This document shows, one piece after another, positions 1,919 through 18,886 of a stretch of 44,062 nt of DNA. This DNA comes from Opitutia bacterium (GTDB lineage Bacteria > Verrucomicrobiota > Verrucomicrobiia > Opitutales > Opitutaceae). The notes beneath the pieces were generated by a model. The model saw only the letters and a program-made list of their open reading frames with translations, was not told the DNA's origin and ran no database searches. The first letter of the stretch is position 1. Each line of letters opens with the position of its first letter. The stretch lies in NCBI GenBank assembly GCA_947467625.1, contig CANIJN010000011.1, positions 1-44,062 on the forward strand. Direction: 5' to 3'. The translations under genes and the position numbers were made by a program.

Positions 1919-3067
1919 ATGACTTCCGATTTACATCATGGACTACTCGGCCTCGTTTCGCTTGATGATTTCATGCCCAGGAAGGCCGTAAACCCGTCTC
2001 CCAAACGCTCGCCGGTGCCCAAGCTGCACGCCGAGCTGCGGGAACTTATTTTGACGACGCGCGAGCGCGTCGCACAGGCGGTGAATTCCGGGCTCACACT
2101 GCTTTACTGGCAGGTGGGCGACCGGATTCGGCGTGAAGTCCTGAAGGAAAAGCGGGCGGCTTACGGCGAGGAGATTGTGCAGGCACTGGCTGCACAATTG
2201 GCGGAGGAATTCGGGGCGGGGTTCAGCCGGAGGAATTTGTTCAACATGGTTCGGTTCTCGGAGGTTTTTGCGGATTTCAAGATTGTGCAGGCACTGACTG
2301 CACAATTGGGCTGGACGCACTTCACCCACATTATCCGCCTCGACGATCCGTTGAAGCGGGAGTTTTACGCGGAGATGTGCCGAATCGAGCGTTGGAGCAC
2401 ACGGGCATTGGACCAGAAGATCCAGTCCATGCTGTTCGAGCGGACGGCGCTCTCAAAGAAACCGGAGAAGCTTGCGCGGCAGGAGTTGGCGGCGTTGCGG
2501 GAGCATGACTTGGTTTCGCCGGACCTCGTTTTTCGCGATCCCTACGTGCTCGGTTTCCTCGGGCTCAAGAACACGTATGCCGAGAAGGATTTGGAAGCTG
2601 CCATCCTGCGGGAAATCGAGGCGTTTTTGGTGGAGCTGGGTCGGGGGTTCACCTTTGTGGCGCGGCAGAAGCGGATGACGATTGATGGCATTGATCACTA
2701 TCTCGACCTGTTGTTTTTTCACCGTGACCTGCGCCGATTGATCGCGATCGATTTGAAGTTGGGGGAATTTCAGGCGGCGGACAAAGGGCAGATGGAACTC
2801 TATCTCGGTTGGTTGCGGGAGCACGAGCAACGGGATCACGAGGAACCACCCCTTGGGCTCATCCTTTGCGCCGGCCGGCGGGAGGAGACGATTCGGCTGT
2901 TGAAGCCGGAGAAGACCGGTATTCGCGTGGCGTCTTACATCGACCGGCTGCTGCCACAGAAGCAACTGGAGCTGAAACTCCACGAGGCGGTTCGGCTGGC
3001 GCGGGAGCGCCTTGCCGCCACGGAGAGCCAACGGACTGAGTCAGACGGGTCTGCGGTGGAAACGTAG
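1919..3067 (+). CDS. YhcG-family PDDEXK nuclease domain protein (DUF1016)
   Basis: A 382-residue protein matching the YhcG/DUF1016 family along its length. It has an N-terminal winged-helix-like region (residues ~35-185) with 'GLTLLYWQVGDRI', 'FSRRNLFNMVRFSEVF', 'LDDPLKREFYAEMCRIERWSTR' and 'ERTALSKKP'. The C-terminal nuclease-fold region (~200-345) has 'DPYVLGFLGL', 'LDLLFFHRDLRRLIAIDLKLG' and 'GQMELYLGWLREHE'. The D..L-x(9-15)-D-x-K core in that block is the PDDEXK signature. Family members are common on mobile elements and are suspected to act in DNA processing or defence, but the substrate is not settled. ATG 1973 (MPRKAV) is an alternative start. Two in-frame copies of a DNA palindrome occur at 2174 and 2282. 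The last gene of the plus-strand group. Confidence 0.88.
   Translation: MTSDLHHGLLGLVSLDDFMPRKAVNPSPKRSPVPKLHAELRELILTTRERVAQAVNSGLTLLYWQVGDRIRREVLKEKRAAYGEEIVQALAAQLAEEFGAGFSRRNLFNMVRFSEVFADFKIVQALTAQLGWTHFTHIIRLDDPLKREFYAEMCRIERWSTRALDQKIQSMLFERTALSKKPEKLARQELAALREHDLVSPDLVFRDPYVLGFLGLKNTYAEKDLEAAILREIEAFLVELGRGFTFVARQKRMTIDGIDHYLDLLFFHRDLRRLIAIDLKLGEFQAADKGQMELYLGWLREHEQRDHEEPPLGLILCAGRREETIRLLKPEKTGIRVASYIDRLLPQKQLELKLHEAVRLARERLAATESQRTESDGSAVET
2174..2200. repeat. Palindromic element, copy 1 (inside the yhcG-like gene)
   Basis: Two perfect 9-bp arms, ATTGTGCAG and CTGCACAAT, are separated by 7 bases. It is read in frame as 'IVQALAAQL'. A near-identical copy starts exactly 108 bp later, and a third, intergenic one lies at 38933. 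The YhcG family normally has a duplicated 'IV.TLS.QL' peptide here, so the protein repeat is expected; the DNA-level palindrome and its intergenic relative are not. Confidence 0.8.
2282..2308. repeat. Palindromic element, copy 2 (inside the yhcG-like gene)
   Basis: Same arms as the copy at 2174 with a one-base difference in the spacer. It is read in frame as 'IVQALTAQL'. The 36-codon separation keeps both copies in phase with the coding frame. Confidence 0.8.
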
Positions 3068-3253: not shown

Positions 3254-4612
3254 TCAGTGAGGCGTCGCTGTGGATTGCGGCTCGGAGCCGGAATGTGGTG
3301 CTGTAGGGATCACTAATCGAATCACTGGCAATGAATCTTGCGGCACGGGAGTCTGGGCCGGTTGCGGCTTCACGGTTGCACCTATCGGCGCGACGCTAAG
3401 GACGGGAGCCGTGGGTTTGGGAGTTCCGAAAACGACCGCCGTAATCACACAGACCAATGGAGTCCAACTGGCGAAGCACATGAGCAACGAGCCCTTGGTC
3501 GCAGCCGCACCGCGATTTTTTAAGGTCTGATACGTTGTCTTCAGGACCGGGTTCGTTTCGCTGAGTCCCTTGCTCATCAAATCCTTTTCCGTGGCAGCGA
3601 TGGTCGTCTTTAGCAGGGACAGCAACGCCCTCTGGCTCTGATCGACGAGCGTCATCGTCGCTCCATACGTAAGGGCGGCAGCAACAATCACCGCGTTGAT
3701 CGCCGTGAATCCGCCGCCCTGCTCCACGTCTTTGACCGCCAGCAGGAGCGCGACGGGAATCGACAGGCTCTTCGTCTCCAGGCCGCTGATAATCTTCTCC
3801 AGTTTTTCCGAAAGACCGAGGCCGGCGGTCTTTGCTTCCTCCGCCAATTTCTCAGGCGAGTGTTCGGCGAGATAAATTGCCAGTCCCTCGTTGAGACGCC
3901 GGGCAAACCGGCTGCTGCCGCGAAGCAGCGCCGTAAAACAAGTTGCAGCCCCGTGGTCCCGAAGAAATTCGGAAAGGGCGGACGCAAAGATTTCGGCCCG
4001 CGTGGCTTTTCCGTCTTCGTTGTTTACGAAGTCTTCGATCTGCTGCGTTGAGACGTCATCCGTCAGATCGGCAATGGAAAAGCCTGGACTGACTTCCGTG
4101 CGCCTGATGCCGAAGAACAGCAAGGAGCCCGTGGCTGAATCGTGATGCTGCGCCCGTTGCTCAAGTATCCGCCAAAGCCGGATCGCGTCATGGTATCGGC
4201 GAACGTCAGGAGGGGCCGCTGTCAGATCATCACCGCAAGTGTGCTCGAAAAAAGCGCCGTTTGATCGGGTCGCAACGAGAACGTAAGCGGCGGGCTCCTG
4301 CGTCTGTGCCCGTGGCAGCGAAAGCAGATCCTTCAAATCCTCTGCGACAACCAAACGATCAACCGTGCGCGGGACGTGCAGGGTGATGTTGGCGCGCGCC
4401 GCAGCTTCGCCGGACCGGTTGGTGTCCAGCGCTCGCTGCACCGCGGGATCGTCGCACGTGGCGATGAGGTCAGCGGCCGAGAGATCGCGCAGCAGCTCAA
4501 ACGCCACCGGGCGTGTCAGCACGACGTTCAGGGTGGTCTGACCGTTCCAGCAGCGGCTTTCGGACGCCGCCCAGAGTTGCCGGAGTCCGGCGATGACATT
4601 TTTAGACTCCAC
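3254..4612 (-). CDS. Membrane-anchored hypothetical protein, partner of NdpA-like gene
   Basis: A 452-residue protein I do not recognise. Residues 1-290 are soluble and mixed alpha/beta ('VVLTRPVAFELLRDLSAADLI', 'YVLVATRSNGAFFEH', 'FFGIRR'). Hydrophobic segments lie near residues 305-324 (NAVIVAAALTYGATMTL) and 377-400 (LMCFASWTPLVCVITAVVFG), and the C-terminal 50 residues are Pro/Thr/Val-rich. This suggests a cytoplasmic sensor or enzyme part tethered to the membrane with a low-complexity tail. Its start overlaps the end of the upstream NdpA-like gene by 11 bp, so the two proteins are probably made together at fixed stoichiometry. A two-gene arrangement of DNA-associated protein plus membrane protein is typical of abortive-infection-type systems, but that role is inference. 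Confidence 0.6.
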   Translation of the reverse strand: MESKNVIAGLRQLWAASESRCWNGQTTLNVVLTRPVAFELLRDLSAADLIATCDDPAVQRALDTNRSGEAAARANITLHVPRTVDRLVVAEDLKDLLSLPRAQTQEPAAYVLVATRSNGAFFEHTCGDDLTAAPPDVRRYHDAIRLWRILEQRAQHHDSATGSLLFFGIRRTEVSPGFSIADLTDDVSTQQIEDFVNNEDGKATRAEIFASALSEFLRDHGAATCFTALLRGSSRFARRLNEGLAIYLAEHSPEKLAEEAKTAGLGLSEKLEKIISGLETKSLSIPVALLLAVKDVEQGGGFTAINAVIVAAALTYGATMTLVDQSQRALLSLLKTTIAATEKDLMSKGLSETNPVLKTTYQTLKNRGAAATKGSLLMCFASWTPLVCVITAVVFGTPKPTAPVLSVAPIGATVKPQPAQTPVPQDSLPVIRLVIPTAPHSGSEPQSTATPH

Positions 4613-5609
4613 TCTTTTCCTCGCTTAGTTGGCGCACCAAGTCGGCCGGTGCGTTGCGAATGGTGATGCTCTTCTCCCTGACCGTAATGTTATCCAGCCA
4701 GTCGTTGCGGTCGAATTCCAGCTTCAGTCCCGGTTGCGTGAATGTGAATTTCACGAACCGCTTCATTATTTTGCTGGGCGGAGGCGAGAATTCGCCTGCC
4801 AGCCCGGACGACTCCTCCGTCAGGTGCTTGAGGATGACAGTCGGATCGTTTGGCCGGAGATAGTTGGCTAGGCCGGTCATGGTCATGGCCCGGTCATTCT
4901 TTCGGCAGTCATTCCAATACGAATGCGTTTGCAGCATGATTGACTGCCGATCCTCCGCACTCATTTTCTGCCCTTCCGTGAACTTGTTCAGTGACGTGAA
5001 CAACTGCATGCCTTGCACTGACGAATCCGTGAGTGGCTCGCAGCCCAAAAACTCGCGGAAGTAGTCCGAAAGGCCCTCCATCCTTCTCGAAACAAAGTGC
5101 ACGACCCCATCTTCATTCCCCGCCACCGCCGCAATCCGGATTCGGCCCGCGAAACGCAGGTGCTCAAAATCTAGGGTATCTGACGAAATGAGGTTTAATT
5201 TCTCATCGAAGCTCGGCTGAACCTTCGTGCTCAAGACGGCCACGAGGATGAGTGCTTCATCGCCGTGCTCATATTGGGCACAAACGACGTAGCCACCGGT
5301 CGCCGCCGTTTCCGAGCGCATGCTCGCTTCAAGGAGCTTGGTCGCGTCCCGGGAGAAAGAGATGAACTCAGCATCGGTCGAGGTGGCGAGGTATCGTTCC
5401 AGTCGCTGTTCAAACACGGGCTTCGCACCGGCGGGCCGCACGAACCGCCCAGCCACGGGATTGCCATTCTTGATCGCGGCCCGAAGCTCCTGCATGAAAT
5501 TTTCCGCCAGTGGATCGGACGCTGGCAACAGGTTGTCACGCAGCAGGCTGCTCGTCTGCTTTTCATGCTGCTTCTTGAGGATCTGATGGGCGATGAGTCG
5601 GCTGGGCAT
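4602..5609 (-). CDS. Nucleoid-associated protein, NdpA/YejK family
   Basis: A 335-residue protein, the same size as E. coli YejK (335 residues). The order of conserved segments agrees with that family: an N-terminal 'LIAHQILKKQ', 'LLRDNLLPASDPLAENFMQELR', 'GGYVVCAQYEH...LILVAVLSTK', 'LDFEHLRFAGRI', 'VVHFVSRR...LSDYFREFLGCE', and the C-terminal 'KRFVKFTFTQPGLKLEFD'. YejK binds the nucleoid; its biochemical task is not well defined. Here the gene is first in a two-gene minus-strand operon with a membrane protein, inside an accessory region, so this is unlikely to be the housekeeping copy. A defence or element-associated role is inferred from location. The family call is firm. Confidence 0.85.
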   Translation of the reverse strand: MPSRLIAHQILKKQHEKQTSSLLRDNLLPASDPLAENFMQELRAAIKNGNPVAGRFVRPAGAKPVFEQRLERYLATSTDAEFISFSRDATKLLEASMRSETAATGGYVVCAQYEHGDEALILVAVLSTKVQPSFDEKLNLISSDTLDFEHLRFAGRIRIAAVAGNEDGVVHFVSRRMEGLSDYFREFLGCEPLTDSSVQGMQLFTSLNKFTEGQKMSAEDRQSIMLQTHSYWNDCRKNDRAMTMTGLANYLRPNDPTVILKHLTEESSGLAGEFSPPPSKIMKRFVKFTFTQPGLKLEFDRNDWLDNITVREKSITIRNAPADLVRQLSEEKSGV

Positions 5610-7988: not shown

Positions 7989-8873
7989 CTACAGCGCTTC
8001 GAGCGCGGCAACTTCGAGCAGTTCTTCGAGGATTTCCGGATGGCGCTGTTGGAGGAATTTCTTGACCTTGCCGTTTTCGAGCAGCTTCCGGACGTAGCGC
8101 TGCGCCGCTCCGAGGTGGAGGGTGTTCTGGCCGAATTGGTCCTGGAAAATCCGAAAGTCCCGCTCCAGCGACTCCATCTCCTTTTCCATCCGGGAGATTT
8201 CGACGGCGGTGAGTCCCTTCACCTTCTTGGGCTCGTCCGGCTTCACCAAGTTCTCCTGCGAGGTGCCGACGAGGAGCGCGCGGGCGTAGGCGAAGGTAAA
8301 GTTGCTGCCGCTGACCATGAGCTGGGCCATTTCGATCTGCCGGAGTGCTTTGACCTGTTTCAGGATGTTGAGGGCGCGTGCGGTGATCGGTTTGTCTTTA
8401 AGAATCTGGATTGCTTCGGCGTGCAGCCCGTCGAGCAGGTTTTTCCCTTCGACAATTTTGCGCACGTCGAGGTCGAGGGCCTGGGCGATCTGCTCTTCGG
8501 TGACGCCGCCCTCCAGCGCCTTCATGATCATCTTGTGCTCTTGGATTAGGGACAGCCGGTTGACCTTGTCGTTGTAGGTGAAGGCGTCGTCTTCGGTGGA
8601 GATGAGGCAGGGGGCGGTGGTGTGGCCGAGTTCGCGAATGGCTTTCAGGCGAAGGTGGCCGTCGAGGAGGAGGAACGTGCCCTTGGCGCCCTTGTTCGGA
8701 TAGACCACGATGGGCTCGACGAGGCCGATGGCCTTGATCGAGGCGAGCACGGCCCGGTATTTCCCGAAGCATTGGTCGGAGGGTTTTACCTGGCGGATCG
8801 GCAGAATCGCATCGACGGCAAGGTCGATGCCGCGGCGCTCGAATCCGATGCGAACTTTCTGTGATTGGCTCAT
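7989..8873 (-). CDS. ParB/RepB-like protein (RepB C-terminal type)
   Basis: A 294-residue protein. Residues ~20-115 form a ParB N-terminal (CTPase/nuclease-like) domain with 'VDAILPIRQVKPSD', 'VLASIKAIGLVEPIVVYPN' and the core 'LLLDGHLRLKAIRELG', where GHLR stands in place of the canonical GERR-type motif. Residues ~120-190 are a helix-turn-helix region (EEQIAQALDLDVRKIVEGK). The C-terminal third is helical like plasmid RepB C-terminal domains. Its ATG overlaps the upstream gene's stop (ATGA at 8873), so it is the last of a coupled set with a second ParB-like protein and a serine recombinase. A role in controlling or positioning recombination, rather than partitioning, is inferred because no ParA is present. 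Confidence 0.82.
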   Translation of the reverse strand: MSQSQKVRIGFERRGIDLAVDAILPIRQVKPSDQCFGKYRAVLASIKAIGLVEPIVVYPNKGAKGTFLLLDGHLRLKAIRELGHTTAPCLISTEDDAFTYNDKVNRLSLIQEHKMIMKALEGGVTEEQIAQALDLDVRKIVEGKNLLDGLHAEAIQILKDKPITARALNILKQVKALRQIEMAQLMVSGSNFTFAYARALLVGTSQENLVKPDEPKKVKGLTAVEISRMEKEMESLERDFRIFQDQFGQNTLHLGAAQRYVRKLLENGKVKKFLQQRHPEILEELLEVAALEAL

Positions 8874-9757
8874 CAGGGGTTTTTGGCGCGCTCGACAAGG
8901 AACTTGGGGAGGGTGTCGAGATCCTCCGCGCGCAGGAGGGTCGTGAAATTTTCGTCCGCGAGGAGCGCGCGAAACGCCGCGCCGAGGGAGAGCAGCCGTG
9001 ATTCGCAGGCGCGGGCTTTGCGGACCATCAGCTTCTGGCGCTGGGTTTCCTGTTTGTAGGCGAGGATCAAGCCGTCGGCGGTGGTGCGACGGCGGGCGCG
9101 GAGGCGGGCGTCGTTGGTGTAGGTTTTGCCGAATGCCTTTCGCTGATCCAAAAGCCGGCGGAAGATCGAGAGCGTCGCCTGTTTCATGGCCTTGCGCTCG
9201 TAGGCCTCGACGAGCATCCGCTGCGCGGCTTCGTCGTCCACTCCGGCAATCTGGATGGCGATGGTGATCGGCAGTCGGCCGAGGAGAACGGCGTCGAGGA
9301 TGCGCTCCTCGCCGTGATCGAGGAGTCTCAGGATGCCTTCGAGATACTGCGCGGACAGGCCGGTCTTGCGGGAAATCTCGTCGAGGGAATTACCCTGACT
9401 GTGCATCCACTGGATCATCCGGATTTGATCGAGAGCGCGGACGCGGCGGCGGGCGATGTTCTCCACGAGGCTGGCGACAAGCCCGTCGGTCTTGGACATC
9501 CGGCGGACGAAGGCGGGAATTTCGGATTGGCCGAGAGAGATGAAGGCTTCGAGCCGGCCCTGGCCGCAGACGAGATCGTAGGCGGGCTGTCCGTCGGGGC
9601 CGGGTTTCGTTTCGGTGACGGTGATAGGGCGCTTCAAGCCCTGTTCGGCGATGCTGCGGACGATCTGTTCGAACTTCCGGCGTTCGCGCACGCGGGGATT
9701 GGCGACGCGGATCGCTTGCACCGGGATCATCAGGATTTCTTTTTCGTCGGGGTTCAT
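8873..9757 (-). CDS. ParB-like protein 2
   Basis: Starts at ATG 9757 (MNPDEKEILMIPVQAIRVANPRVRE), overlapping the recombinase stop by ATGA; 294 residues, the same length as its neighbour. The N-terminal ParB domain has 'VQAIRVANPR', 'FEQIVRSIAEQGLKRPITVTE', 'YDLVCGQGRLEAFISLG' and 'SLVENIARR'. The HTH region has 'SLDEISRKTGLSAQYLEGILRLLDHGEERI' followed by 'LPITIAIQIAG'. It is closer to chromosomal ParB in the GQGR and EN-ARR motifs than the downstream paralogue. The frame is open further upstream, but that portion is antisense-style noise over the recombinase. Two tandem ParB-like proteins without ParA behind a recombinase suggest a DNA-bridging or spreading accessory for recombination. Function inferred. 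Confidence 0.82.
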   Translation of the reverse strand: MNPDEKEILMIPVQAIRVANPRVRERRKFEQIVRSIAEQGLKRPITVTETKPGPDGQPAYDLVCGQGRLEAFISLGQSEIPAFVRRMSKTDGLVASLVENIARRRVRALDQIRMIQWMHSQGNSLDEISRKTGLSAQYLEGILRLLDHGEERILDAVLLGRLPITIAIQIAGVDDEAAQRMLVEAYERKAMKQATLSIFRRLLDQRKAFGKTYTNDARLRARRRTTADGLILAYKQETQRQKLMVRKARACESRLLSLGAAFRALLADENFTTLLRAEDLDTLPKFLVERAKNP

Positions 9758-11319
9758 GCCACGTCCTCGATGGAGATGCGCTCGGCCAAGGCGTAGAAGA
9801 AGCCGAGGTCGTCGAACCGGTAGGTGTCGAGCAGCGCGTTGTTGCACTCGGCCAGCCGGAGGCGGAGGGCCACCTGATCGAGTGCGGGGAAAAGATAGTA
9901 GTCCTTTATGCCGTGGTTGGACTCGTCCATGCGGGCCACGATGGTGATGTCCGGTCGGTGCGTTTCCTCGAAACGAACCAGCCACCGGTGCGCGCCGGCC
10001 GGCGTGTGCAGGCAGCGGGAGAGAACGAGCGACACGACGAGTTCGTGGTCGAGCACGAGCAGTTCGTTGGCGGGGTTGCGGTCGACGTGGACGCCGAGGG
10101 TTGCGAGCTGAGTGATGACCTCCTGGACAATCTCGGGATGTTTCTGGCGGAGGAAGCGGTTTACCTCGATGAAACTGAAATCGGTGTCGGGCGTGTAGCC
10201 AATGAGCTGGTAGGCGCGGACGAGGCTGCCGAACCGGTGGCGGAAGGAAGCGCTGGACGGCAGGTCGTCGCATTCGTCGATCAGCAGGCCGGAGATGCGG
10301 CCATGCTGAGAGAGAATTTGCCGGAGCCGTTCGAGCATTTCCTCGTCGGTGAAGCGCTTGGCGCGGGCGAGGATGATTTCCTGCACCTTCAGAAAATCCT
10401 CGGTCGAAACGATGGCGGGGAATGCGGCCTTCACCCGAATCCACATGTCGGGCGGATTCTGGACATGCTTCCGTTTCAATTTGAAGGAAGTGCGGTGATA
10501 GACGTTGTTGCCGAGGTATTTTTCGTTGGTGAGAAGCTGATGCACCGTGCCGCGGGTCCACGGTCTCCCCAGATCGGTGCGGACGTTGCGCGCGTTGAGT
10601 TGTTCGGCGATCTCGCGTTCGGTGAGATGCTCGTCGAGGAACGCGCGGTAAACCCAACGGACCGTGGCAACTTCCTCCTCGGGACCGAGGGTCAGGACGA
10701 CACGGTCGGTCTGGAGGCTTTTGTGTTCGCCGACGGCGAGGACGCCTTTGAGCTGGCCCGACTGATCGATCAGCATCCGGCGGAGCCCATAGCCGGCCGC
10801 GCCGCCTTGCTTGAAGCCGAGTTGAATCAGCCGGCAGGCACCCTGAAAAACCTTGGTCGAAAGCTCCCGGCTGTATTCGCCGGCCATCGAGCGTTTGACG
10901 CTCTTGATGATGTTCGAGGTCGGCGAGCCATCGTTCTCGAATTGTTCGGCGCAGTAGTGAACCGTGATCCCGGCGCGTTTGCAGATGTATTCATAGTAGC
11001 CGCTTTCATCGGCGTCCTGAAACCGGCCCCAGCGGCTGACATCGTAAGCGAGGATGCACTTGAAGTCGGCGGCGCCTTTTTCGACTTCCTCGATCATCTT
11101 GCGGAGACTGTCGCGGCCACGGACATTCAGGCCGCTCTTGCCGGCGTCCTCGAAGACCCGCACGACCGCCATGTTCCGGCGAGCCGCGTATTCCTTGATC
11201 CGGTCGAGCTGATTCTCCGTGGAATACTGTTGGTGCTCGGTGGACATGCGGACGTAGGCCGCAGCCGGAGTGACGGCGGCATCATGGGGCTTGAGCGGGA
11301 GTTGAGGCTGCCCGCTCAT
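9754..11319 (-). CDS. Large serine recombinase
   Basis: A 521-residue protein. The N-terminal resolvase domain has catalytic Ser26 in 'AYVRMSTEHQ', then 'TENQLDRIKEYAARR', 'FEDAGKSG', 'ILAYDVSRWGR' and 'SIK'-type downstream helices ('IIKSVKRSMAGEYSRELS'). The 'recombinase' domain follows with 'YGLRRMLID', 'VRWVYRAFLDEHLTEREIAEQLNARNV' and 'WTRGTVHQLLTNEKYLGNNVYHR'. Residues ~330-521 lack the zinc-ribbon/coiled-coil tail of phage integrases and instead form a long family-specific C-terminal region. It heads an operon with two ParB-like genes and is preceded by a small zinc-ribbon gene. The catalytic motifs are intact. Probably the mobility enzyme of this accessory region; no att sites could be identified. 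Confidence 0.93.
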   Translation of the reverse strand: MSGQPQLPLKPHDAAVTPAAAYVRMSTEHQQYSTENQLDRIKEYAARRNMAVVRVFEDAGKSGLNVRGRDSLRKMIEEVEKGAADFKCILAYDVSRWGRFQDADESGYYEYICKRAGITVHYCAEQFENDGSPTSNIIKSVKRSMAGEYSRELSTKVFQGACRLIQLGFKQGGAAGYGLRRMLIDQSGQLKGVLAVGEHKSLQTDRVVLTLGPEEEVATVRWVYRAFLDEHLTEREIAEQLNARNVRTDLGRPWTRGTVHQLLTNEKYLGNNVYHRTSFKLKRKHVQNPPDMWIRVKAAFPAIVSTEDFLKVQEIILARAKRFTDEEMLERLRQILSQHGRISGLLIDECDDLPSSASFRHRFGSLVRAYQLIGYTPDTDFSFIEVNRFLRQKHPEIVQEVITQLATLGVHVDRNPANELLVLDHELVVSLVLSRCLHTPAGAHRWLVRFEETHRPDITIVARMDESNHGIKDYYLFPALDQVALRLRLAECNNALLDTYRFDDLGFFYALAERISIEDVA

Positions 11320-11948: not shown

Positions 11949-13364
11949 TTATTTCACGCGGCGAGTTGATTTTCTGACACCATGATCGAGCGCATGCGAT
12001 TCGCCCCGCAGCCATTTCACAATATCCTCAAGCCGAGTCTCGGCGGTCTGGAATCCGCCATTCCAGATCGCCACGGGTGCATGCATGGAGCGCTCGAAAC
12101 CGGCCGTCGTCATCGTTTCCGGCAATTCCGTCCACTGTCGCTGCGCCAAATGCTCTGGTGCGCGAAAGGTCACGGGCGGAACCCGGAGCGTCTGCCCGAG
12201 AGCGTTGATCCACGGATCATGGCGCTTGGCGGTGGGCGCACCTTGGAGACGGCGCGTCACTACCAACACGGGAGGTCGGCGACGACCAACGGCCTTGGAG
12301 CGCAGCACTTGGTGAATCACCGCATTGATGTGCGGGTCAGCGAATCCGTATCCGCCGATGAGAATCGCGTCTGCCTGATAAGCGTGGTGCGTCAGCACGC
12401 TGTAGAGCGTGAGGAACGGCTCTTCCTGCAATTGATCGAGCTTGAGGCCGCCGGTGACGAGCGATGTCGGGAGGATACGCTTGCCGTCGGCTGCCAGGCG
12501 GACGTCTTTGATGTCCTCCCAGTCTTCGCCGTCGCCGGTTTGGCTGAGATCGTCATGCCACACCACTTTCAGTCCGAAGTCGTCATGCTCCTGCTCGCGA
12601 CTGCCGACGCGAATGCGATGGTGAACGCTGCCGTGAAGATGATATAGGAAATCCCATTGTTTGCGGCTCAGGATTTGTGTCGGCTGAAACGCTCCGCGCT
12701 GGCGGTCGAATCCGACAAAAGCGTTGGGAAGCGCATTTAGTGCGACGGTGTCGTGGTTCAGGTTATAGACGCCGACAGAGAATTGCTCCGTGAGCGTCGT
12801 GAGCAGCCGTTGATATGGGTTGAAGGCCGCCGTGCCTCGATCGTTTTCCAGCTCCAACTCGAAACGCCGCGAGCAATCCCGAATGCGAGTCGCGATGCGA
12901 GCGCACAGGTAGTGAAGCTGTCCTTGAATAGCGTGAAACACCTTGCCGCTCGCGTGGCCGTCCAGGTCGGTCGAATCCGGACGGATTTTCAGTGAGGCAA
13001 ACACGTCCGCCTGCGGAATCCACTTAAAGATTGGATCGCCATACGGCTTTGCGAGGACGGCGTTCATCAGCACGTGAAGATCGCCGAGGACACGCTCGTA
13101 GTTCGGAGCCGTGCGGGGTTCGGTGAAGCTCTTCAGCTCGGACGACAGGTCGGCGGAGTAATTTTCCCGGTTCGACCAAAGCAAATTGAAATAGTCGGCG
13201 TGGGTTTGCGCGGACAGCGATTCGATGGGATCGCGACCGAGCCGCTTGACATAGTCTCTGGCCCATTGGCGGACTTCACCGTCCAGGTCGCTCGCAATCG
13301 GAAAACCCTGTTCGGCCGAGCTGCCGGCGCCGAGGATGACCAGAAGCTTTTTTTTCGCGGGCAT
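11949..13364 (-). CDS. SIR2-like domain protein
   Basis: Start placed at ATG 13364 (MPAKKKLLVILGAGSS), giving 471 residues; the open frame upstream has no family-like sequence. Residues 7-30 carry the NAD-binding SIR2 signature (ILGAGSSAEQGFP). 'YNLNHDTVAL' (200-209) supplies the N-x-x-D element, 'LYHLHGSVHH' (241-250) the catalytic-His/HG-S segment, and 'ILIGGYGFADPHIN' (334-347) the late Rossmann strand. This is the SIR2_2/SIR2-like group found in anti-phage systems (ThsA, DSR, Avs effectors), where the domain depletes NAD+. No obvious SLOG or sensor domain follows; the last 100 residues are unassigned. It is divergent from a cyclase-like gene. An A8 run in codons 4-6 could allow slippage. 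Confidence 0.8.
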   Translation of the reverse strand: MPAKKKLLVILGAGSSAEQGFPIASDLDGEVRQWARDYVKRLGRDPIESLSAQTHADYFNLLWSNRENYSADLSSELKSFTEPRTAPNYERVLGDLHVLMNAVLAKPYGDPIFKWIPQADVFASLKIRPDSTDLDGHASGKVFHAIQGQLHYLCARIATRIRDCSRRFELELENDRGTAAFNPYQRLLTTLTEQFSVGVYNLNHDTVALNALPNAFVGFDRQRGAFQPTQILSRKQWDFLYHLHGSVHHRIRVGSREQEHDDFGLKVVWHDDLSQTGDGEDWEDIKDVRLAADGKRILPTSLVTGGLKLDQLQEEPFLTLYSVLTHHAYQADAILIGGYGFADPHINAVIHQVLRSKAVGRRRPPVLVVTRRLQGAPTAKRHDPWINALGQTLRVPPVTFRAPEHLAQRQWTELPETMTTAGFERSMHAPVAIWNGGFQTAETRLEDIVKWLRGESHALDHGVRKSTRRVK

Positions 13365-13473
13365 GCCTGTTGAGCAACGACCGCGAGACGCTGCCGTCAA
13401 CGAAACATGCTGCCGACGAAGGGAACGCTCGCGCCGACAAAATGGCTCCTCCTGCCCGCCGCGAAATTGTGCC

Positions 13474-13522
13474 CCGGCCGTCAAGGTAGTGCTCCTTCGT
13501 CGCCTCACACCTTGACTGCCGG
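13474..13522. promoter_or_regulatory. Inverted repeat in the divergent sir2/cyclase-like promoter region
   Basis: CCGGCCGTCAAGGT (13474-13487) faces ACCTTGACTGCCGG (13509-13522): 14-bp arms with 13 matches and a 21-base spacer. It is 110 bp from each of the two divergent start codons, as expected for an operator serving both promoters or a hairpin in one leader. Confidence 0.45.
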
Positions 13523-14338: not shown

Positions 14339-15162
14339 ACGCTGCGTGCAAAGCACCGACGCGGAAACGCGAGGCCGCGAAACCCAAGCGGGCTCGGAAA
14401 CCGGCGCGCGTGACGGGCGCCGTTATCTTTCTCGCGTCACTCCTGTGGGAGGATGATCGCGAAGCGGACGAGCCGTTGGGGAAATTACGAATGGAGTGGC
14501 GAAAAAAACATCTCGTGATGGACCACCTGGCGGACTTGCGGGTGCCGATCCGCTATTGGCGAAAAAGTGGCATCAACGGCCGGCGGAAAGGACAATATAC
14601 GATGGTTTTCGCAGGCAAGGAACTTGGCACCGCGAAGGTCTCCAAACTGAGCGCGGTCCTACCGGTGCGCGCGGGCGTCATCCCCGCGAAAACGGAAACA
14701 CAGATTGCACGCGAAGCGGACGCGCTGGCCCGGGCGGAGGACATACAAAAGAACGGCGACCCGCGACACGTCTGCACTTGGGGCGTCGTCGCGATGGCCA
14801 TCAATCCGAATTCACCGCACCGCGCGGAGCTCCGGCGCGTTTGGCGCCGCATCTTCAAGAGAGATCCGAACAAGGAGCACTGGAGGTTCGGGCCGGACGT
14901 GGTCGATCGCTCCGGTTTCTTGCGGGTCAAGTTGCGGTGGAGCGATGAGGCGCTGCGAGGCGTCGATTTCTGCTTGGCCACTCAGACCAACCCGGCGGTG
15001 CCGCTACCATCGCCGCAGGCAATTGCCGACGCGGCCCGGCCGATGGGAGCAAATTCATATTTCCACCGAACCGTTTCAGCCGGAATCGTCACCGTAGATG
15101 ACGAAGCGATTCATGCATGCCTCGCGACGGCTCGTGCCGGCGTGTCGGAGACAGTGGAGTGA
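14335..15162 (+). CDS. Unknown protein coupled to the cyclase-like gene
   Basis: A 275-residue protein from ATG 14335 that overlaps the cyclase-like stop. Residues 1-27 are very Lys/Arg-rich. Residues ~28-110 contain 'GAVIFLASLLWEDD', 'WRKKHL', 'LRVPIRYWRKSG' and 'QYTMVFAGKELGTAKV', a strand-rich pattern I have seen only in uncharacterised proteins. Residues ~150-220 include 'WGVVAMAINPNS' and 'DRSGFLRVKLRWSDEAL'. No transmembrane segment, TIR, nuclease or cyclic-nucleotide-binding motif is evident, so it is not a standard Pycsar effector. Because it is translationally coupled to a probable cyclase, an effector or regulator role is the natural guess, but the sequence does not prove it. Confidence 0.55.
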   Translation: MNAACKAPTRKREAAKPKRARKPARVTGAVIFLASLLWEDDREADEPLGKLRMEWRKKHLVMDHLADLRVPIRYWRKSGINGRRKGQYTMVFAGKELGTAKVSKLSAVLPVRAGVIPAKTETQIAREADALARAEDIQKNGDPRHVCTWGVVAMAINPNSPHRAELRRVWRRIFKRDPNKEHWRFGPDVVDRSGFLRVKLRWSDEALRGVDFCLATQTNPAVPLPSPQAIADAARPMGANSYFHRTVSAGIVTVDDEAIHACLATARAGVSETVE

Positions 15163-15319
15163 AGCATTTCAGACCATCGTCGCCGCCCCAAGCAGTTCGA
15201 TGCGGTCGACGTCCCTCAGAAAATCTGCTCGGGCAACTATTCTGCCTTGGAAAAGGGCCAGCAGGACAAATTTCCGTTTCTTGCCTCGCCGCACCCCGAA
15301 GAAACGCTACGCTCCCGGC

Positions 15320-16300
15320 ATGGCCAGTTCCGCCCAGATCAAGGCAATGCTTCAAAGTCACGGCTCCGGTGACAACGACCGGTTTTATGCCGTTGCACTT
15401 CAAGTTGCCGCAGCCGAGGCCCGCCGTGGGCATGATCGTCTTGCGAAGGAGATTCAGGAGATGGTCGAAAAAGCGCGTTTGGCCAAATCGAACCAACGGG
15501 CGGCTTCCATCGTCCCGCTGTCTATGCCGCAGGGCGAGGCGGCGGATCTGCTCGAGGAAGTCCCGGGCAATTGTCGTGTTTCCGACCTAATCCTTTCCCA
15601 ACCACTTCGTGACCGGGTTTCGAGAATTCTGGAAGAACAGCGTAATCTCAGCCAACTCAAGGAGCATGGTCTGCGCCCACGTCAAAAGCTGCTATTCACC
15701 GGGCCTCCGGGATGCGGCAAGACCATGACCGCATCTGCATTGGCGGCAGAGCTATCCCTGCCGCTTTTCGTGGTCCGGCTTGACGGACTGATCACCCGTT
15801 ACCTTGGGGATTCGCTGTCAAAGCTCCGTCTCGTGTTCGACGCGGTAAATCGCTCCCGTGCGGTGTATCTCTTTGATGAATTCGATAGCATCGGCTATAC
15901 GCGTGAGTTTGCTAATGAAGTCGGCGAAATGCGCCGGCTCTTGAACAGCTTTCTCATGTTCATTGAAAAACTGAACAGCAATAGCCTTGTAGTCGCAGCG
16001 ACGAATCACGGCAGTCGTCTGGACAAGGCGCTATATCGGCGTTTCGACGACCTAATTGAGTTTGGACTGCCAGGTGACGAAGAAACCTGGACTACCATCC
16101 GAACTCGGATGGCGGGCGTCCATACTGCGTCGCTTTCGCAAGCCAAGTTGCTGCCCGCGGCCAAGGGACTTAGCTTCGCGGAAATTACCCGCGCCTGTGA
16201 GGAAGCGGTAAAGGGAATGCTCATCGGTGGGAGGAAAAGTGTGACGACCGACATGCTCGTAAACGCTCTCACCGAGCGCCGTTTATTTCTGAACCATTGA
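15320..16300 (+). CDS. ietA: AAA+ ATPase, IetA-like
   Basis: Start set at ATG 15320 (MASSAQIKAML), giving 326 residues; the open frame upstream overlaps the previous gene and reads as noise. An N-terminal helical region (1-90) precedes a single AAA domain: Walker A GPPGCGKT at ~128-135, pore-type 'LDGLITRYLGDSLSKLR', Walker B 'VYLFDEFDSIG' with D186/E187, 'VVAATNHGSRLD' (sensor 1) and 'ALYRRFDD' (arginine finger). The FtsH/Vps4-like ATPase directly followed, 9 bp on, by a subtilisin-like protease is the arrangement named IetAS by Gao et al. (2020) as an anti-phage system. The ATPase is thought to govern the protease; the trigger and substrates are unknown. The symbol is assigned from architecture, not from alignment. 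Confidence 0.82.
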   Translation: MASSAQIKAMLQSHGSGDNDRFYAVALQVAAAEARRGHDRLAKEIQEMVEKARLAKSNQRAASIVPLSMPQGEAADLLEEVPGNCRVSDLILSQPLRDRVSRILEEQRNLSQLKEHGLRPRQKLLFTGPPGCGKTMTASALAAELSLPLFVVRLDGLITRYLGDSLSKLRLVFDAVNRSRAVYLFDEFDSIGYTREFANEVGEMRRLLNSFLMFIEKLNSNSLVVAATNHGSRLDKALYRRFDDLIEFGLPGDEETWTTIRTRMAGVHTASLSQAKLLPAAKGLSFAEITRACEEAVKGMLIGGRKSVTTDMLVNALTERRLFLNH

Positions 16301-16309
16301 TCTCAATCC

Positions 16310-18886
16310 GTGGCCGATCCTCAATTGCCCCTGTTTCGGATGCCCGAGCCCGCGCTCCGGCACCTCAATCTCCCCAAAAAACCGAGCAGGTTGGATTACA
16401 AGGGCAATGGGCGGGGAGCGTCGCCGAGACAGGTTGATCGCACCCTGCACGGAGCGAGTCTGCGCCGGCAGATTGAAACGGTCGAAGCCCAGATTACGGC
16501 CGTGGAGGAACAAAGAATCGAACAGGGGCTTCCGGCTCAGGTAGATTTGATTCTCGAACTCGAATCCGCGCCTGACTTCCCGCTTTCGGCCGACCATCTC
16601 CATGCGCTCACGTCAGGGACCAACGGAACGATTTCCTTGCTGCACGCCCGCCCGGTTAGTGATGACCAGGGCGTCGAGCGCACCGTAGTCGTCCTGCACG
16701 TGCGGTATGGCTCCATTCATTTCCTAGCCGACAAGGTCCGCAACTATCAGGAAGGGACCACCAAAAAGGGAAAGACCCCAAATGCCTGGATTGCCAATCT
16801 TGCGCGGATCGGTGTCGCGGCTCTCGCAGCCCTGTGGACCGACACCGACAAATTGCCGGACGACCATGAGCCCCATTGGTGGGAACTTTGGGTGCGCCGG
16901 GAGCCGGCCGTTTTAAGCCAGTTCGACAGAATCGTTCAGCAACTGGCCGTCCAACACCGTCCTGAACGCCTCGCTTTGCCCGACCATGTCATCGTCGTGG
17001 TGCAGGCGACACGCGCGCAATTGGAGTCGTCGCTCGATCTGCTCAATACGCTCGCCGAGGTGCGGCGTGCCCGTCCGTGCAGTATCGGCCTCTCGGACCT
17101 TCGCGGCGCCGAGCTGGCAGAGTGGATAGATGATGCGCTCAACCGTGTTGCTTTGCCGGGTGCAGATGCCCCCGTCGTTTGTCTCCTCGATTCGGGCGTC
17201 AATCGCGGACATCGCCTCATCGCTCCGCTTCTTGCCGAAGGTGACAATCATACCGTGTTTGGGGATCGGGACGCCAGCGACTGCTGGCCGGGAGGGCATG
17301 GCACCCAGATGGCGGGCCTCGCCGCCTACGGTGACCTCCGAACCTTGATGCTTTCGAATCAGCCTTGGGCTCAGAGCCACCGTCTGGAGGGAGTTCGCCT
17401 GATCGATCCGGCCCGGCCGCACGAGCCGGAAAACTACGGCCAGGTAACCAAGCAAGGCGTTACCCTGCCGGAAGTGGCTGCCCCCCACCGCCGTCGTGTC
17501 TATTCGCTGGCGGTCACGGCCGATGGATTGAGCGACGCCCGGCCAACGTCATGGTCTGCCGCCGTGGACGCTGCCGCCTTTGGCGCAGAGGAGCGGGGCG
17601 AACCCAAACGAATTATTCTCGTTTCCGCCGGCAACGTCGACGCCCTGTCCATGGGCGGTGCCTATCGGTATCCGCAGGATAACCAAAAACTCACCGTTCA
17701 AGATCCGGCCCAAGCATGGAATGCCGTTACGGTGGGCGCCCTCACGCATCGGGACCGTATTGAAGAAACGGACGCGGAGTCCCGTTTGCTCTCCCCTCTG
17801 GCCGGACGCGAGCAGTTGAGCCCTTTCAGCCGCACCTCCTGCGACGCCGATCCGCATTGGCCGATCAAACCGGAAATCGTGATGGAAGGCGGAAACGTCG
17901 GCTTGCATCCCCGGAACGGTCCCGAGCGTCGCGACTCACTTGATCTTCTCAGCACGGCGGCGGAATTTCGGGTCCGCCCGATTTGCGGGATGCGGGCCAC
18001 GAGTGCGGCGACGGCCCTTGCAGCGCGACTGGCGGCCCAGCTCCAAGCGACCTATCCGAACTATTGGCCGGAAACGATTCGCGGGTTGTTGGTCCACTCG
18101 GCGCGGTGGAATGATGCGATGTTGGGAGACCTCAATCCGTTCGCTGCGTTCACACGGGAAAAACGGGCGCTGTTCATTCAAATGCTCCGGTGCTACGGTT
18201 TTGGCGAACCGGATACTGCGCGAGCCCGATTTAGCTCCCAGCAGGCAGTCACACTTCTGCGGGAAGACACGATCACGCCCTTCAAAGGCTCCGCCGGCGC
18301 GGCGGGGCTGAACGATTGCCATATTCACGGGCTGCCGCTCCCTACTGCCCTGCTGCAGGCGAATCCCGCCACCACCTGCACCCTCAAGGTCACCCTGTCG
18401 CATTTCACCGCACCCAATCCTTCGGCCAGCAATCGCATCCCCGGTTCACGTTACCGTTATGCGGGGTGCCTCCTAAGGTTTCAGGTTCGGCACAAGGACG
18501 ACAGCGTCGCGGAATTTGAAAGCCGTGTAGCCAAAGTGGCAGAGGAGGACGAGGAAGCCAATGAGGAAGGACTGGAGGCTCGTAACGATTCGGCCTGGGC
18601 GCTTGGGGCCAAACTGCGCGGCAAAGCCGGGTCGCTTGTTCAAGACATCTGGCAGGGGAGTGCTGCCGACCTGACGCAGATGGATCGGATCGCTGTCTTT
18701 CCTGTCAAGGGATGGTGGGCGGCGCGGAGTTTCAATGATCGGAACTCTCCCTGGTATCGGTGCCATCGGCGCACGGTCCGCTACAGCCTGATTGTTAGCG
18801 TTGAGATCGCCGCCGAAGTGCAACTCTACAACGAGATCAACAACATCATCGTCAGCCTGCCCGTGGACGTGGAGATTGGCACATGA
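16310..18886 (+). CDS. ietS: Subtilisin-like (S8) protease, IetS-like
   Basis: An 858-residue protein starting at GTG 16310, 9 bp after the ATPase stop. Residues 1-280 form an N-terminal region typical of IetS-type proteins, with 'VDLILELES', 'VVVLHVRYGSI' and 'ARPCSIGLSDL'. The S8 catalytic triad is visible: D294 in 'VVCLLDSGVN', H330 in 'GGHGTQMAGL' and S565 in 'MRATSAATALAARLA'. The Asn/oxyanion segment is 'IILVSAGN'. Residues ~600-858 are a beta-rich C-terminal part with an acidic patch 'AEEDEEANEEG'. No signal peptide is present, so it is a cytoplasmic protease, as expected of an intracellular defence effector. The frame is intact. Repeat R1 begins 4-5 bp after the stop. Confidence 0.88.
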   Translation: MADPQLPLFRMPEPALRHLNLPKKPSRLDYKGNGRGASPRQVDRTLHGASLRRQIETVEAQITAVEEQRIEQGLPAQVDLILELESAPDFPLSADHLHALTSGTNGTISLLHARPVSDDQGVERTVVVLHVRYGSIHFLADKVRNYQEGTTKKGKTPNAWIANLARIGVAALAALWTDTDKLPDDHEPHWWELWVRREPAVLSQFDRIVQQLAVQHRPERLALPDHVIVVVQATRAQLESSLDLLNTLAEVRRARPCSIGLSDLRGAELAEWIDDALNRVALPGADAPVVCLLDSGVNRGHRLIAPLLAEGDNHTVFGDRDASDCWPGGHGTQMAGLAAYGDLRTLMLSNQPWAQSHRLEGVRLIDPARPHEPENYGQVTKQGVTLPEVAAPHRRRVYSLAVTADGLSDARPTSWSAAVDAAAFGAEERGEPKRIILVSAGNVDALSMGGAYRYPQDNQKLTVQDPAQAWNAVTVGALTHRDRIEETDAESRLLSPLAGREQLSPFSRTSCDADPHWPIKPEIVMEGGNVGLHPRNGPERRDSLDLLSTAAEFRVRPICGMRATSAATALAARLAAQLQATYPNYWPETIRGLLVHSARWNDAMLGDLNPFAAFTREKRALFIQMLRCYGFGEPDTARARFSSQQAVTLLREDTITPFKGSAGAAGLNDCHIHGLPLPTALLQANPATTCTLKVTLSHFTAPNPSASNRIPGSRYRYAGCLLRFQVRHKDDSVAEFESRVAKVAEEDEEANEEGLEARNDSAWALGAKLRGKAGSLVQDIWQGSAADLTQMDRIAVFPVKGWWAARSFNDRNSPWYRCHRRTVRYSLIVSVEIAAEVQLYNEINNIIVSLPVDVEIGT

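Follow-up and report, generated by a model that had tools for sequence, protein, structure and literature searches.

In the DefensePredictor paper 42 systems were validated by their protection of E. coli MG1655 from phage; one of them carries a YejK nucleoid-associated domain (PMC13092281). DS-1 was reported in 2026, and the main text of the paper gives no mechanism for it (PMC13092281). Since this main text never spells out DS-1, we rely on the NCBIfam names in equating DS-1 with the YejK-domain system. Kiwa combines a membrane protein with a DNA-binding protein that does not cleave DNA (PMC12904381). In RexAB of lambda and its relatives, two prophage-borne genes encode one protein that binds DNA and one that is located in the membrane (PMC12894663).

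The locus considered here is located in a 44 062-nt sequence of an Opitutia bacterium, the complete contig CANIJN010000011.1, the whole of which is called the window below. The pair consists of two intact genes on the reverse strand: a gene for an NA37/YejK-type nucleoid-associated protein (DS-1A-like; 4602..5609, 335 aa, ATG start) and a partner gene (DS-1B-like; 3254..4612, 452 aa, GTG start). The 11-bp overlap of the two genes described in the earlier note on this DNA is exact (4602..4612, reverse strand), and in most relatives the two genes overlap too (-4 to -41 bp). A ribosome-binding-like motif, GAGG, was observed just 5′ of the partner GTG, within the NA37 gene, and AGGA is present ahead of the NA37 ATG; judging by the sequence, translation of the two genes is probably coupled. 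Both reading frames are real, since 9,674 bp of the region recur with 99.93% identity in a second assembly, a MAG of an uncultured Opitutae (CAJAYO010000599.1). A search of the whole 5.6-Mb genome found no further NA37 genes.

The upstream protein matched the Pfam family PF04245 (NA37) over residues 6-323 (E 1e-44), with a score of 153.7 bits passing the gathering cut-off of 24.6 bits; it also matched phrog_3767 (E 1e-52). Its predicted model was matched by Foldseek to E. coli YejK (9be2) with E 3e-19, and the comparison of the two structures gave Z 23 and rmsd 5.1 over 313 residues. The score against the YejK equivalog NF001557, 152.1 bits, was below the curated cut-off of 341.

The author of the earlier note knew of no named system with such a pair; DS-1 is one. 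The model NF053868 (DS1_1_antiphage) matched the window NA37 protein with E 4.9e-11 and 42.2 bits (curated cut-off 330, not reached), and NF053869 (DS1_2_antiphage) matched the partner with E 1.1e-11 and 44.5 bits (curated cut-off 315, not reached), the two matches being in the same gene order. Since the scores are far below the cut-offs, we characterized the window pair as a divergent DS-1-like variant, not as DS-1 itself. The E. coli pair WP_000355468.1 / WP_000150292.1 scored above both NCBIfam cut-offs; its PGAP names are 'nucleoid-associated anti-phage protein' and 'anti-phage protein'. We found the E. coli DS-1 pair in 105 out of 5,426 complete E. coli genomes; in the records that were opened it was located in prophages or prophage-like plasmids, reverse to its phage neighbours and beside antiterminator Q. 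A further link is given by PHROG 5023, a phage protein cluster listed without function, which E. coli DS-1B matches as well (E 2e-158); its profile, for which no curated cut-off exists, matched residues 87-384 of the window partner with E 1e-24.

To collect relatives of the pair we have taken the following approach. Homologues were searched for with the partner only, in plasmids, phage records, one genome scan and IMG/VR; therefore, the sample of homologues is independent of NA37. Closer sub-alignments, rather than the wide alignment, were used as scan queries, and the homologues were grouped at 90% identity into 35 clusters. We observed an NA37 gene directly upstream of the partner, on the same strand and at a distance of -41 to +27 bp, in 34 of these clusters; the lone exception was a truncated partner gene on a Cupriavidus plasmid. 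The earlier note had named a partner not conserved next to NA37-like genes as grounds against the pair; since NA37 adjoins the partner in nearly all of the non-redundant clusters, what we found is the opposite. Distance matrices of NA37 and partner were correlated at 0.942 over 32 pairs, while the maximum of 2,000 shuffles was 0.358. NA37 and its partner form one unit, near-obligately paired and co-inherited.

The link is one-way: the partner needs NA37, and NA37 does not need the partner. Lone NA37 genes are many; they are found in E. coli K-12, on Pseudomonas plasmids, in Vibrio and Pseudomonas phages and, on a separate branch, in other Verrucomicrobiota. Beside the examined lone NA37 genes of plasmids hmmsearch gave no match to the partner. 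Among 386 sampled genomes of other Verrucomicrobiota (one of the same genus included) none had a full-length partner, and 95% of sampled Verrucomicrobiota had no NA37 at all. Two changes on the NA37 tree, in which many end branches are long, are needed for paired versus lone NA37. The window partner used alone gave no match to viral contigs. An NA37 gene was seen in 68 phage records (43 of them from Vibrio phages) and the partner in only ∼7; in phages, NA37 without the partner might trigger the paired systems or counteract them.

Some relatives depart from the common arrangement. In three of them (L010, L048 and L052) apparent frameshifts interrupt one gene of the pair or both. In Acinetobacter pairs (L006, L018 and L008) a small gene of 207-210 aa with hydrophobic segments comes next downstream and overlaps the partner gene; it is maybe a third component. 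The NA37 protein of Acinetobacter pragensis (L008, 4558-5763) has two long EEQ / DQE repeat insertions. In another Verrucomicrobiota genome (L079, 1441-3545) NA37 shares 46 bp with a gene whose 342-aa product lacks hydrophobic helices, and the two may make up an NA37 unit of another kind; genome G027 has two NA37 genes ∼2 kb apart with another gene in between (L063, L080).

The partner protein is laid out as a soluble N-terminal part (residues ∼1-250), a helical membrane module (∼251-400) and a disordered tail (∼399-452). Its predicted model is of middling confidence (pLDDT 73, pTM 0.51), with long helices at residues 253-293, 304-347 and 355-396. The earlier note had described two hydrophobic segments. 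This description holds for the window partner taken singly (305-323 and 376-394), whereas hydropathy averaged over 26 relatives, with peaks at 306-322 and 375-394, adds a weaker third one at 284-292; the main segments are joined by a helical, coiled-coil-like stretch. With the averaged hydropathy and the predicted helices taken together, the membrane module was delimited to residues 284-396 (3425..3763, reverse strand). The low-complexity, Pro/Thr/Ala-rich C-terminal tail (residues ∼399-452; 3257..3418, reverse strand), also pointed out earlier, is real and predicted to be disordered (pLDDT below 50); it is present in only some of the relatives.

The best conserved part of the partner is the helix together with the first hydrophobic segment, with mean pairwise identity of 0.43 versus 0.19-0.23 in the N-terminal part. 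P286 and Q327 are almost invariant across the family; the window partner itself deviates at several family-conserved residues, e.g. D277, Q279 and Q281 are changed to G, E and K. Comparison of the partner with Pfam, PADLOC and PDB sequences gave no match beyond coiled-coil noise, and a Foldseek comparison of its model with PDB and viral structures returned nothing at E 0.001; neither Pfam nor the structural comparison of the model showed an enzyme domain. The second-look matches were generic three-helix bundles, pore-forming toxin subunits among them, and these were not above the long-helix background. On the predicted model, a plausible topology would be a cytosolic soluble part, a hairpin, a cytosolic coiled coil, a third helix and an outer tail.

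The genes found within 19 kb of the pair include PDC-S02, a SIR2-like gene, IetAS, an IS110 transposase, two ParB/RepB-like genes and a serine recombinase. The PADLOC candidate PDC-S02, a DUF1016/YhcG PDDEXK nuclease gene (1919..3067, forward strand), is not a part of the pair; it is convergent with it and ends 186 bp from its tail end. The gene of the SIR2_2 domain protein (11949-13508, reverse strand) had weak PADLOC SIR2/Aga_SIR2 matches, and the IetAS defence pair, an IetA-like AAA ATPase and an IetS-like subtilase, occupies 15098-18886 on the forward strand. The large serine recombinase gene (9754..11319, reverse strand), a probable mobile-element core, is followed by the two ParB/RepB-like genes in overlapping order, and the stretch 7989-11319 (reverse strand) has the look of an integrative-element core. 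The recombinase, the transposase and these three other defence loci bear out the earlier suggestion that the region is accessory. Elsewhere, the Methylobacter pair adjoins Gabija and PDC-S19 and the Pseudomonas pair adjoins PDC-S06; related pairs are also carried on plasmids and in prophages.

In our view the pair is probably an anti-phage system, DS-1-like but divergent, which is part of a defence island carried by an acquired element, with NA37 sensing DNA and the membrane partner responding. The anti-phage role, proposed in the earlier note from a resemblance to abortive-infection pairs, is well backed: the pair is homologous to DS-1, which was validated in E. coli, and its surroundings are a defence island. 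Abortive infection by way of a membrane effector would be a narrower and more conjectural claim. Defence is the best-supported role of the pair, and the copy in the window probably defends as well. NA37 would bind nucleic acid and recognize either the DNA of the phage or one of its nucleoprotein states. Two or three helices would insert the partner into the inner membrane, its coiled coil would lie in the cytosol, and its variable cytosolic part may contact NA37 and hold it at or near the membrane. The conserved helical membrane module would then make the response, most likely a membrane disturbance resulting in failed infection, as proposed for RexAB. Our preference for a membrane effector, paired with a DNA-sensing NA37, comes from the conservation of the membrane module and from the variability of the soluble part, which could be that of a sensor or docking part. 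A membrane output by the partner, read from the architecture alone, is put forward tentatively.

The division of labour could also be that of Kiwa: the partner would tether NA37, which would capture or coat phage DNA at the inner membrane and block replication and transcription without cell death. We hold such a capture mechanism to be rather doubtful, and nearly as likely as the membrane-effector one. Kiwa has the same two-part plan as the window pair, no nuclease domain is present in the pair, and the long coiled-coil helices and large cytosolic part of the modelled partner would fit a scaffold no less than a channel. KwaB chains (9mrx, 9nyu, 9mtn) were among the second-look matches of the NA37 model, with Z 3.6-3.9 and rmsd 4.5-4.7 over ∼120 residues, but Z under 4 is in the range of common arrangements and is not significant. 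Profile comparison (hhalign) of NA37 with five KwaB-like sequences gave probability below 1%; likewise, there was no PADLOC hit to the pair at E up to 1 and no PF16162 hit in the genome. RexA was absent among the matches listed for the NA37 model, which tells nothing either way.

Two other explanations leave defence aside. The pair might serve the mobile element, with NA37 organizing or silencing element DNA and the partner tethering it for stable inheritance or transfer control. The plasmids and prophages that carry related pairs, the frequent lone NA37 genes of Pseudomonas plasmids and of phages and the ParB/RepB-like genes nearby would all fit such upkeep, and NdpA2 is reportedly a regulator of PAPI-1 transfer. 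Still, the E. coli pair acts as a defence system in phage tests, the pair is also found among other defence genes and the examined lone NA37 genes of plasmids are without the partner, so that we regard element upkeep as improbable. That NA37 is an ordinary housekeeping YejK with an unrelated neighbour is scarcely credible. Its being the sole NA37 gene of the genome would agree with a housekeeping role, but the linkage to the partner (34/35) effectively refutes it; the missed equivalog cut-off (152 of 341 bits), the lack of NA37 in most sampled Verrucomicrobiota and the separate branch formed by the lone NA37 of the phylum are also against it, and we rejected this explanation.

The pair type was already known through DS-1. 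What is added here is how far the family extends, a link that is one-way and near-obligate, the connection of DS-1B/NA37 with PHROG 5023 and a variant from Verrucomicrobiota that lies too far away for current models. DS-1 is now tied to a wide family present in Verrucomicrobiota, Alpha- and Gammaproteobacteria, plasmids and phages, and PHROG 5023, listed as of unknown function, gains a function-bearing link. One could speculate, with more hesitation than about the membrane output, that DS-1 is one tip of a large old superfamily (NA37 with PHROG 5023), and that in this superfamily a fold of nucleoid proteins was taken into a membrane-bound immune complex as its DNA-sensing half; the helix-proline-helix module, conserved in the partner, would then be an effector or scaffold of a new kind, either distantly related to Kiwa or convergent with it. 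A testable question is how a nucleoid-protein fold and a membrane protein together stop a phage.

Compared with Kiwa, the N-terminal half of the window NA37 may weakly resemble KwaB in structure; no sequence kinship with Kiwa was found for either window protein, and the membrane protein differs in size and predicted topology. RexAB has the two-gene plan of a DNA-binding and a membrane protein in common with the window pair; however, unlike the window partner, RexB is small and channel-like, with several helices and no large soluble domain. YejK/NdpA (PF04245; PDB 9be2) belongs to the same Pfam family as the window NA37 and has the same fold over the full length, but the housekeeping and plasmid genes are solitary, whereas the window NA37 is coupled to a membrane partner in a defence island. 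DS-1 resembles the window pair in having an NA37 gene and then a membrane/coiled-coil gene, on the same strand, abutting and on mobile DNA, while identity of the window proteins to the E. coli proteins is ∼15-20%. The E. coli NA37 protein carries an N-terminal zinc ribbon of two CxxC motifs (CLEC, CDKC), whereas the window protein begins at the NA37 domain and is without it; the ribbon is missing in the other aligned relatives too and is perhaps no defining feature of the family at large. The disordered C-terminal tail, on the other hand, is a feature of the window partner. Finally, the home of the E. coli pair is a lambdoid prophage, and that of the window pair is a Verrucomicrobiota defence island.
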